A stretch of 64,000 nt of DNA from Thunnus maccoyii (Eukaryota; Chordata; Actinopteri; Scombriformes; Scombridae), in the NCBI RefSeq assembly GCF_910596095.1, contig NC_056544.1:12633155-12697154 (forward strand). The letters run 5' to 3'. This document shows positions 6,300-63,527 of the stretch, piece after piece. The first letter of the stretch is position 1, and every line of letters begins with the position of its first letter. Under the pieces are notes generated by a model that had not been told where the DNA came from, ran no database searches, and saw only the letters and a program-made list of their open reading frames with translations. The translations under genes and the position numbers were made by a program.

Positions 6300-6797
6300 C
6301 TTAAACTCGCTCCCGTCTGCGCGCCCCCGCGGGTGCTGAGAGAGGAGCTGTCGGCAGTGAGATCATGTGAGAGTCCACGCTTAGAGAAAGTAGGTTAGCA
6401 GGGTAGACTGAGAGGAAAGCAGGCGGAGAGTCACAGCGCGGAGTCTAAGCACCGCTGGACCACCGTGGGACTATTCTGTCAAAAAAAAGTTCTGCCAAAA
6501 TCTTTTCGCCAGTGCGCCGAGACGGTTACGATGCAATCCAAAGCGACTTTCTCCACTCTTTTATTTTGCTCGGACTTGACCGAGCGTTAAAGGAGTTTCG
6601 GGTAGTTTTCTTCTCTGTTTTTTTTTTCCTGGTCGTGCTTTACGAGAGCTGTCTGCAGCCGGGACGAAGTTAATATTTACAGAGCCAGTGCACTCTGGAT
6701 CCAGCGCTTTATTCTCCTTATCCTGGCAGCTACAGTAACCACATGTAGTCGAGTTTTCGTCGTCCAGCCCAGAAAAACAAAACATCAAAAATGAGAG
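6300..6797 (+). promoter_or_regulatory. Probable promoter and 5' UTR exon 1 of the ror gene
   Basis: After AT-rich DNA the sequence becomes GC-rich near 6305-6350, then runs as a purine-rich leader to the ATG at 6791 and the donor AG|GTAAGT after 6797. Exon 1 codes only for Met-Arg and the first base of the third codon. The leader contains two short upstream frames: an ATG directly followed by TGA near 6365, and a 19-codon frame at 6531-6590. The transcription start was not located and no clear TATA box was seen, so the left edge is an estimate. Confidence 0.5.
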
Positions 6798-9700
6798 GTA
6801 AGTCGATTTTTATGTCACAGTGAATCTGCGCGTGTTTAGTTGAACTTGGTAAAGATCGCAGTGTGTTTTTATCTGGGCTGGAATGGCCACATGTGTGCGC
6901 AAAAGGAACTCTTGAGTGCGCCTGTTTTCCTCCCAGTGCGCATTAATCCCTCATGACTGGATTATAGCTGCACAGAGCCCCGAGGAGGCACTGAAGTTCA
7001 GTGTGCAGTGATGAAGAGCTGTAGGCGTGTTGTTCAATCATGAGAATTAACCCAACTGGATTAATTCTGTTATTTACCCAGGATGAATGTCAGTGAAAGA
7101 CTTCACTTGAACACATGCGTAATTTTGCTTTATTATTAATGGCCGTGACAAATCTGCCTTTAATTGAAGAAATGTAAAGTCGTATCTCACCTGGGGGTCC
7201 TTCTGTAAATTTGCCTGGGGATCCATGTTAGAGTTATGCAATAAGTAGAGGGAGGGGCATGAGAGGGGGTTGTTGTTAACCAAAACTAGAATTATGTAAT
7301 CAAGATGTTATTCGATCTTATCAGATGAATTAAACACTTAAATAGTGAACGATTTACACCCATTCACTTAAAAGAATAATGAATTTAGCTGTTTTGTTCT
7401 GATATTCAGTGGTACACATTTATCTGATTAAAATCATTTGATGTTTTTTTTTTTTAAATCTAAATCATCCCTGAAGATGTTTGCAAACTTTTTGTTAGTG
7501 CCGATGAATTTGTAGGATGAATCTGAGCATCGTTGGTGCCGTTGAGATGTTGTTGTGATGTGATGGCTGTGCCAGCATGGCTGACTGTGTGAGTGTACAG
7601 AGGGAGAAAGGGGCCTGGCTGTTCCACTGACCTAGTTATGTCACCCAGCATTATACAGCATTGACAGTGGAGGGAGGGGGAGCGGCTCTGGGAAGCGCCG
7701 TGCCGCCGGACGTGCAGCGCCATGTGCGGTTACAGGCGAGCAGTGACTGTCGTCCTTCAACGTGTCGCTTCCTGACACAGGCTGAGCTTGAACTTGGGCA
7801 GTGGGGCAGCAGATACCTGTTATTTAACAAAAGAAGGGTGTTTTATACAGCCTGTGCAAAACACAGTTTGATATTTTTATCCATATCCAAAAGAAAAACA
7901 TTAAAATAGACCCTAAATCATTTATTTCTTATACTGGAAAGACATTTTTGCTGTGCATGTATTACATCCACAACCTACTGTAAACTCTTAAAACTGAAAC
8001 TCATCTTTATGCAGCAATTTTTGGATGCAAACAACAGATAACAATTTCAATCAGCCTTGTGTTAATGTTTATCAATCTGTGCACTTGTGTTGCATTTCTG
8101 AGTTCTTGCTCTGAGAGAGGACAGCTGCAGTGAGTTTTGTTTTTCTGGCCGAGGAGGAAAGAGATTAATTTTTGCACTGAAGGAGGGGAGAAGGGGGGGG
8201 CGGAGGGGGGCCCCTAGTGGAGGGAGGTTCCCTCTCTGGCAGGATATCCAAATGTAAACAAACCGCAGCCCTTTCTTAGCTCACTGCACCGAAAATGTAG
8301 GTTAGTCACTCAGCCGGCCGTTTCCTCACTAGAAAAGCATGTCAGCATTTTTATCCCGGTTTGAACATGCATTTATAATCCTTTTAGTCCAAATTGTCGA
8401 GTCATTTCAACATCTTTGGCATGCTGACAGACATTTTGAGGCTTGGTGTGTTGTCTGGACCTCTGACACTTTGTCTGGTTACCGCATTACGGAGTGCACT
8501 TCCACATAATGTTTGTATTTATGCACATAGACACAATGAAAGATCATAAGACTCGTGTCTCACACTGACACCCAGCAGGAGAGGCCTATGAAATTCTTAG
8601 TTCTTTTTTAAATCCCCCCCTTTGTGGGCCTCAGCTAGGCCTCCTCTGGTATTTGCATCTTTTAAAATAGAGCTCATTGATTTGAATGCTCAACCTGCTA
8701 GACAGCCAGATTATATACTGCATATATGCATTTTTTATGTGTTGAGTAAAGTTAACAGCATTGTACTGTTTAAACCAGTATCATCTGTAGAGAATATAGA
8801 ATTAAAAAATTTTGTTAGAGCTGTACAACAGGGTATGAGGTTGAGTGCAACAAGGCATCAAGTGCAATGAGGAAGACATCTGCCTTCATAAATTCAACTA
8901 GGAGGTGTGAGGACAAACAGGGTGTTGTTTCATATCTAACAATAAAGCTTCTCTCTTAGGGTTCATCTCTGCAGGCCTTGAGGCTTAGCAAACCCTTATT
9001 TTACTGAAACAAAATCATTTGCGAAATATTCCCATACTGGCTATACCGCTAACGTGATTTCAAAAACGGGAAGAGGCAGCAAGGATAACCACAGTGGGCT
9101 CTTGTGATACAAGCCTGTGCTGCACTCTCAGCCTACAGTGAGGCATGACACAACAAGTGCTTCAGCATTGCTAAAATGTATAGAACTGAAGCACAAGGCC
9201 CCTCCACCCCCAACCTACTAATGAGTGTATCCTCTCATGTCTGTCAGGTGATAAAATAATTAAAAGAACACCAGCCCCCACAGAGCCCCCTGTCACTCTG
9301 TTGCTCAGGGGCATTTAACAGTCTGCATGTTATTGTGATTTGCATAACAAGCTAAAAACAACCTGTACTTGCATTAAATCAAGTTGTAAGATCGCAAAAT
9401 GTAGAAGTGATCGGTGTGCGAAGCATGCGTGTGACCGTGCATGTATGACAGTGAACATGTGGAAGGTCAAAATTCATCCTTTCACTCCTTTGTTACGCTA
9501 GCGACACACTGACATACTGACTGTTTGACACACTGGCCGGGGGGCTCGTGTTGGAGAATTATCGGCTGTTTGTTCCACATTAGATACCAAGAAGTATAAA
9601 GCACAAAGTCAATGATTTTCTCCGCCCATCCCTTCTACCTACCCCACCCTTACAGAATTAGCCTTTTGTGGAGATAACAAGGTTACACATTTAGCTGGCT

Positions 9701-63300: not shown

Positions 63301-63527
63301 TAAATATCTCCTCTAGGAAACAAGTGTTGGCCACCAAGGCGGAGGCCGAGCGTGACGGCGTGAAGGTGCCCACCACGCTAGCCGAATACTGTGTCCGCAC
63401 GCGCGCCCCACCTCCCGACGAAGGCTCCGACCTCTTCTATGACTATTACTACGACGATGACGACGTGGAGGACGGGGATGGTGACTGCTGCTACGATGAA
63501 GACGACTCAGGCAACGAGGAGTCATGA
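60349..63527 (+). CDS. cdc34: Ubiquitin-conjugating enzyme E2 R1 (Cdc34), 5 coding exons
   Basis: Exons are 60349-60534, 61729-61815, 61950-62047, 63031-63165 and 63317-63527, giving 238 aa. Cdc34 is the E2 that works with SCF cullin-RING ligases to build Lys48-linked ubiquitin chains on cell-cycle proteins such as p27. The UBC fold covers about 11-175, with the HPN motif at 86-88, the catalytic Cys96 in [12 protein letters not shown], and the Cdc34-class acidic loop insertion just after it ([12 protein letters not shown]). The C-terminal tail is strongly acidic ([13 protein letters not shown] ... DDSGNEES), as needed for binding the basic canyon of cullin-RBX1. Some positions ([21 protein letters not shown]) resemble UBE2R2, but DEGSDLFYD and the 19p13-like neighbours favour cdc34. 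ATG 60349 was chosen for the family N-terminus MAQ...SSQKAL. Confidence 0.94.
60692..61248 (+). mobile_element. TTAA foldback MITE ('AGGATAGGTTCA' type), copy 2
   Basis: The left arm AGGACAGGTTCATAGTTTTT through AAACAATAGTCAGGTGCCCA is answered by the right arm TGGGCATCTGACTGTTGTTT through GATTTGAACCAATCCT. Internal blocks match copy 1 at 22449-22985. The TTAA flanks have decayed. It lies in cdc34 intron 1. Confidence 0.8.
62534..62700 (+). mobile_element. 'AACTAA(T/C)' MITE, partial copy in cdc34 intron 3
   Basis: TAGGGCTGTAACTAATGCTA near the left, then TTTGGTCTATAAAGTGTCAG and GAAAATGGTGATTGGGCTAT, follow the family's left half. The right half is missing. Confidence 0.6.

Follow-up and report, generated by a model that had tools for sequence, protein, structure and literature searches.

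Which member of the ROR family of nuclear receptors is encoded at this locus, and why does it lie beside a class 4 semaphorin among genes of human 19p13.3 type? The locus is a 64,000-nucleotide stretch of Thunnus maccoyii contig C12 (positions 12633155-12697154, hereafter the window; the assembly comprises 782 Mb in 54 contigs), in which we identified six genes: ROR, SH3GL1, STAP2, a class 4 semaphorin, CACTIN and CDC34, all present where an initial annotation of the sequence had claimed their linkage. The window is very probably one of two copies, left by the teleost genome duplication (3R), of a 19p13.3-type ancestral block, in which RORd (NR1F4; named rorca/rorcb in fish) and a SEMA4E-type semaphorin represent the 19p13 type in two quartets of genes. 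According to this reading, the two early vertebrate genome duplications (2R) would have given rise to RORA-RORB-RORC-RORd and SEMA4B-SEMA4D-SEMA4A-SEMA4E, both in the order of the human 15q, 9q, 1q and 19p types, and the block would have kept two genes that are reported or believed to be absent from mammals.

Full exon models were built for the receptor and the semaphorin only. The ten receptor exons (6791-19909) join in frame into a single open protein, with GT at 9 of 9 donors and AG at 9 of 9 acceptors, and the start, ATGAGAG followed by GTAAGT at 6791, is the sole plus-strand match to the pattern ATG[CA]GN-G-GT[AG] within positions 1-13400 of the window. Pfam, queried with a shortened hinge, returned zf-C4 and Hormone_recep, and the protein has the composition of a ROR (NR1F) receptor, namely a C4 zinc-finger DNA-binding domain (DBD) and a ligand-binding domain (LBD), a ROR-type C-terminal extension and helix 12; a diagnostic stretch of 22 residues and the motif PPLYREVF were both found in it. 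The hinge exon (14366-14893) contains runs rich in Ser and His, yet keeps a 17-residue stretch resembling SPDQSGLDxxGIK, which we take to be a RORA/RORB motif. The semaphorin is likewise in frame across 14 exons (45018-49737; GT at 13/13 donors, AG at 13/13 acceptors), the exon 7 donor (47196) having been picked by homology among several that leave the frame open, and it encodes the Sema, PSI and Ig domains of a class 4 semaphorin together with a hydrophobic segment of 21 residues read by eye. Since the exons are in frame with GT/AG boundaries throughout, neither gene looks like a relic.

A protein search of the assembly, in which the best 114 of 207 candidates were scored, yielded at least six loci of the ROR family. 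Exon-level comparison with solved mammalian LBDs assigned those on C1 and C5 to RORA, that on C9 to RORB and that on C10 to RORC; the window gene and a locus on C7 form a pair of their own that matches none of the three. The name RORC for the C10 locus rests on the trees, because its bit scores are nearly equal (268 against ROR-gamma, 267.5 against ROR-alpha). A genome scan with PF00104, from whose listing the window receptor was absent, was not used further. In an unrooted maximum-likelihood (ML) tree of the LBD, which held 8 of the 9 ROR rows (C1, with a partial LBD, was left out), the C12 and C7 receptors group with support of 100/100 and join RORB at 97/96, and fish and mammalian sequences group at 80/83 within RORB and at 94/94 within RORC. 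The corresponding values in a tree of DBD plus LBD, with 9/9 rows and the DBD added for six fish rows only, were 100/100, 97/97, 85/85 and 95/95. Joining the pair to RORA was rejected (p 0.025). On these alignments the sister of the pair would be RORB, not RORC. A clade apart from RORA, RORB and RORC, with two teleost copies among the at least six loci, is what characterises RORd/NR1F4, and the fourth ROR that the initial annotation had proposed for a 19-type block is thereby borne out as a subtype already published in 2017. Its prediction of a clade either sister to RORC or outside the three known types held in the second part only, and the mixed beta/alpha/gamma character that it ascribed to the receptor is really beta-like, the best solved relatives being ROR-beta (331 bits), ROR-alpha (299 bits) and ROR-gamma (256 bits), in keeping with a sister position to RORB.

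The names rorca and rorcb, in use in papers of 2021 and 2025 (PMC8674837, PMC12154703), imply a different identity, that of a RORC (ROR-gamma) duplicate, and the ROR loci found include just one further RORC-like locus. However, that locus, on C10, pairs with mammalian RORC rather than with the window gene, of the three solved matches the one to ROR-gamma scores lowest, and joining the C12 and C7 receptors to RORC makes the tree 7.3 log-likelihood units worse for the RORC clade (approximately unbiased (AU) test, p 0.046) and 13.8 units worse for fish RORC alone (AU p 0.028). A RORC duplicate, rejected by the trees, is therefore extremely improbable, and the nesting in RORC that the initial annotation had named beforehand as fatal to its proposal did not occur in these trees. 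The 2021 paper, a salmon study, simply uses the two names, and a 2025 preprint gives rorc, rorca and rorcb as ROR-gamma paralogs, a label at odds, for the last two, with the RORB-side placement of the 2017 paper and of our trees. The fish names would thus send readers to the wrong mammalian counterpart, a point of consequence for papers on fish immunity and the clock.

In the 2017 paper, RORd is described as a fourth ROR subtype found in teleosts (as rord1 and rord2), frog, turtles, chicken and gar and absent from mammals, and a neighbour-joining tree leads to the proposed scheme (rora+rorc)(rorb+rord) (PMC5553892). The reverse primer given there for medaka RORd1 translates to STEG-stop; because the C7 protein ends in ..DSTE and matches it, the C7 copy is probably rord1 and the window receptor rord2. 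The window protein has one residue fewer before the activation helix, within a stretch of 16 residues encoded by exon 10, than any row examined for RORA, RORB or RORC. The same one-residue gap is present in the C7 copy and absent from C5, C9, C10 and the mammalian rows (the C1 row ends before the site), so that the missing residue between helices 11 and 12 is a possible marker of the RORd clade.

Turning to the semaphorin, its best solved relative is SEMA4D, with 573 bits compared with 314 for SEMA3A. Mammals have six SEMA4 types (4A, 4B, 4C, 4D, 4F and 4G). The best 72 of 201 candidates from the genome search were scored, making the gene count a lower bound; weaker matches (for example C4, C21, C23, C3, C10:5.4 Mb and C10:4.5 Mb) were left out of the trees, as were loci on C24 and C11 whose exons we take to be SEMA6-like. 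In a tree of 18 rows (12 from the assembly, a SEMA4D row taken from a human PDB entry, and provisional human rows for the other five types), C1 and C5 group with 4B, C10 and C15 with 4A, C9 with 4C, C14 and C20 with 4G, C22 with 4F and C19 with SEMA4D; the 4A, 4C, 4F and 4G placements had support of 82 to 93 and were not starred. The window semaphorin forms a clade with genes on C7 and C16 (100/99) that is sister to C19 plus SEMA4D (99/99), and when the five provisional rows were removed these values were 99/98 and 89/93. Fish and human SEMA4D group at 99/98 with the C12, C7 and C16 genes outside. Among A, B, D and E rows only, the split of D and E from A and B was supported at 99/98, and both E with B (p 0.003) and E with A (p 0.004) were rejected. 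Nesting within a mammalian SEMA4 type, also named beforehand as evidence that would speak against the initial annotation, was rejected for 4B (AU p 0.0005), 4A (AU p 0.002) and fish 4D alone (AU p 0.007), and a mammalian type was accordingly discarded as the identity of the gene. Given a clade of its own beside SEMA4D and the split of D and E from A and B, the three genes would add a seventh lineage to SEMA4 and complete the A/B/D group with its fourth; the fourth SEMA4 of the initial annotation therefore stands within that group and not for the class as a whole, which has six types in mammals. The C16 gene (C16:22162386-22166655) is a third member of the clade with a long branch; its identity as a SEMA4D copy was rejected (p 0.0005), and alternative pairings among the three copies were not rejected (AU p 0.11 and 0.086). 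Zebrafish sema4E, which guides branchiomotor axons (PMC9406964, citing Xiao et al. 2003), is the likely namesake of this clade.

The neighbourhood of the two genes is of 19p13.3 type, as the initial annotation's appeal to 19p13-type neighbours had led one to expect. Much of it recurs on C7. STAP2, CACTIN and CDC34 were identified by scores and SH3GL1 by diagnostic residues. On C7, ROR (13.295 Mb) and SH3GL1 (13.312 Mb) agree with the window in order and strand, whereas CDC34 (14.765 Mb) and SEMA4 (10.63 Mb) are both encoded on the opposite one. A SEMA6-type exon lies at C7:13212755-13212919 (13.213 Mb), and a matching one at C12:12613201-12613317, 20 kb to the left of the window; we take both to be SEMA6B, a gene of human 19p13.3. 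C7 also carries matches to the PIAS, TLE and UHRF families, which are likewise 19p13.3 families. This content is as expected of a 3R sister of the 19p13.3-type block.

RORA is found together with SEMA4B on two contigs, C1 (24.6 Mb between them) and C5 (0.9 Mb); C10 carries RORC and SEMA4A at a distance of 16 Mb, and RORd and SEMA4E occur together on C12 (25 kb) and C7 (2.7 Mb). When PIAS (PINIT), TLE (TLE_N) and UHRF (SAD_SRA) were each counted once per contig, 10 of 11 family-contig combinations fell on the eight contigs with ROR or SEMA4A/B/D/E genes, C16 excluded (binomial p 0.00013, with 24 chromosomes, C1 to C24, assumed). With the contigs of SH3GL (C7, C1, C22, C2) and UBE2R (C7, C3) genes outside the window added, the count was 13/17 (p 0.00034); neither count includes an SH3GL-like match on C5. 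These families were chosen as members of the paralogy group, and the counts are thus the test of a prediction rather than a blind scan.

Several observations weigh against an ancestral block with two 2R quartets, and two further explanations draw on them. RORd could be a teleost-only duplicate of RORB and SEMA4E one of SEMA4D, both placed secondarily in the 19p13-type block: each is the sister of the gene in question, and joining the C12 and C7 receptors to fish RORB alone was not rejected (AU p 0.096 for the LBD, 0.085 for DBD plus LBD). In contrast, fish SEMA4D pairs with human SEMA4D, and a grouping of C12, C7, C16 and C19 without human SEMA4D was rejected (p 0.007 with 18 rows, 0.0016 without the provisional rows); two unrelated families would both need to have moved to the same segment before 3R; and genes of gar, chicken, turtle and frog have been placed in RORd (PMC5553892). 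We consider such duplicates quite unlikely, and synteny argues against nesting of the RORd pair inside fish RORB. The proximity of ROR and SEMA4 could alternatively be a recent coincidence, since same-contig pairs outside the window are often far apart (0.9 to 24.6 Mb, including the 2.7 Mb on C7), and RORB (C9) and SEMA4D (C19), which we had expected on one contig, are on different ones, C9 carrying SEMA4C instead. Yet the same pairing of types recurs for RORA with SEMA4B on two contigs, for RORC with SEMA4A on one and for RORd with SEMA4E on two, which makes a coincidence highly unlikely. UHRF on C19 and TLE on C9, both presumably 9-type, suggest that these two contigs are 3R sisters that kept different genes. 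The remaining points on this side are the marginal rejection of RORd with RORC (p 0.046); the lack of any PIAS, TLE or UHRF match on C12, C10 or C15; one TLE match on C16, at 10.87 Mb; copies of SH3GL on C22 and C2 and of UBE2R2 on C3, outside the ROR/SEMA4 contigs; and the third SEMA4E-clade copy on C16, unexplained by one 2R and one 3R event. The comparison is also confined to one fish assembly and mammalian rows, and five of the human SEMA4 rows are provisional. An ancestral 19p13.3-type block retained in duplicate nevertheless remains the reading that we prefer.

The coordinates of all features are collected in Table 1. The STAP2 gene scored 68.5 bits against STAP2 and 54.1 against STAP1, which was rejected on the lower score. 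Two stretches of CACTIN (339 bits) were searched, and no second match to either was found anywhere in the assembly. For the last gene, the UBC core alone favoured UBE2R2 (401.9 bits, compared with 397.9 for UBE2R1/CDC34, both PDB sequences), a result overturned by the full protein with its acidic tail (461.8 bits for UBE2R1/CDC34, 454.7 for UBE2R2), such that the paralogue is decided only when the tail is included. The SH3GL gene is of endophilin-A type, and PDB sequences fail to separate SH3GL1 from SH3GL2/3; we take it to be SH3GL1 on 20 diagnostic residues.

Table 1. Features of the Thunnus maccoyii window (positions within the window)
Feature	Position	Strand	Basis or remark
ROR exon 1 (M-R and split codon)	6791..6797	+	unique start match, in-frame join to exon 2; 6.6 kb intron after
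ROR exon 2, first zinc finger (29-residue stretch)	13388..13473	+	splice sites, frame, zf-C4
ROR exon 3, second zinc finger	13584..13725	+	splice sites, frame, zf-C4
ROR exon 4, hinge (runs of Ser and of His)	14366..14893	+	splice sites, frame
ROR exon 5, start of ligand-binding domain	15910..16031	+	
ROR exon 6, ligand-binding domain	16672..16804	+	
ROR exon 7, ligand-binding domain	17355..17462	+	
ROR exon 8, ligand-binding domain	18719..18829	+	
ROR exon 9, ligand-binding domain	19542..19654	+	
ROR exon 10, helices 11-12 and stop	19748..19909	+	
SH3GL1 (endophilin A2), exon with a 15-residue stretch to end of SH3 exon	24004..31950	+	paralogue by diagnostic residues
STAP2, PH and SH2 exons, inner extent	35009..38219	+	bit scores; PH exon recognised by eye
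Class 4 semaphorin of SEMA4E type in 14 exons, with signal peptide, sema, PSI and Ig domains, a membrane segment and a short tail	45018..49737	+	
CACTIN	50976..58562	-	339 bits
CDC34 (UBE2R1)	60349..63527	+	full-protein bit scores

By analogy with its family, RORd would act as a monomer, its intact zinc fingers and C-terminal extension contacting ROR response element (RORE) half-sites and its helix 12 driving transcriptional activation under the control of a small lipophilic ligand; the residue missing before helix 12 may alter docking of the activation helix. The most potent ligands found for medaka RORd1 were 4-hydroxy- and 4-keto-retinoic acid (PMC5553892). The semaphorin, again judged from its family, would be a membrane-anchored guidance ligand for plexins. 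We read the closeness of the two genes, 25 kb apart in the window, as inherited linkage and not as joint action. Their loss in mammals would follow for the semaphorin from mammalian gene lists, and for the receptor from the absence reported in PMC5553892. If correct, mammals would have lost a linked RORd-SEMA4E pair from a short stretch of 19p13.3, between SEMA6B/SH3GL1 and CACTIN.

Three elements were known beforehand: a fourth ROR, the placement of that receptor with RORB, and the name sema4e; what is newly added is the linkage of RORd with SEMA4E and the matching histories of their families. Among the matches listed in a search of the open-licence literature (titles and the starts of abstracts), there was no paper linking RORd and SEMA4E as 19p13 members of two quartets, or connecting either gene with a 19p13 block; nor, among the matches listed from that literature, did any describe sema4e as completing the SEMA4A/B/D group with a fourth member next to RORd. 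The linkage is an independent line of evidence for the fourth ROR claimed in 2017, and with SEMA4 a further family has its fourth member in this block. That the ROR and SEMA4A/B/D/E families keep all four products of the early duplications in fish, with both trees pairing the 9 and 19 types against the 15 and 1 types, is a proposition to which we give an even chance. The 9-19 pairing had already been drawn for ROR in 2017 (PMC5553892), and SEMA4 now provides a second family whose tree shows it independently.

The closest comparison for the block as a whole is the paralogy group formed by human chromosomes 1, 5, 9, 15 and 19, which was attributed to two duplications (PMC2682703) and comprises the same ancestral segments. 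The first scheme given there, the most parsimonious, has two pairs of segments, 15-type with 9/5-type and 1-type with 19-type (PMC2682703), whereas both of our trees pair 9 with 19. If true, this pairing contradicts that scheme and would settle in which order the two duplications affected this segment; two families are too few to overturn it, but they make the duplication order testable on linked genes. Of the single genes, the window receptor resembles RORd/NR1F4 as published, a fourth subtype with two teleost copies that stands beside RORB and is reported absent from mammals (PMC5553892). That description relied on a neighbour-joining tree, and words beginning with synten- or linkage do not occur in its main text; the window adds the 19p13-type neighbourhood, the 3R sister block and ML tests. 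The semaphorin is most like SEMA4D (1olz), its closest solved relative, in its sema, PSI and Ig domains, and differs from it in belonging to a separate clade, as fish and human SEMA4D group without the window type. With zebrafish sema4E (PMC9406964) it shares the standing of a class 4 semaphorin outside the six mammalian letters; identity of that gene with the clade is presumed, with the C12, C7 and C16 genes all candidates for its counterpart.

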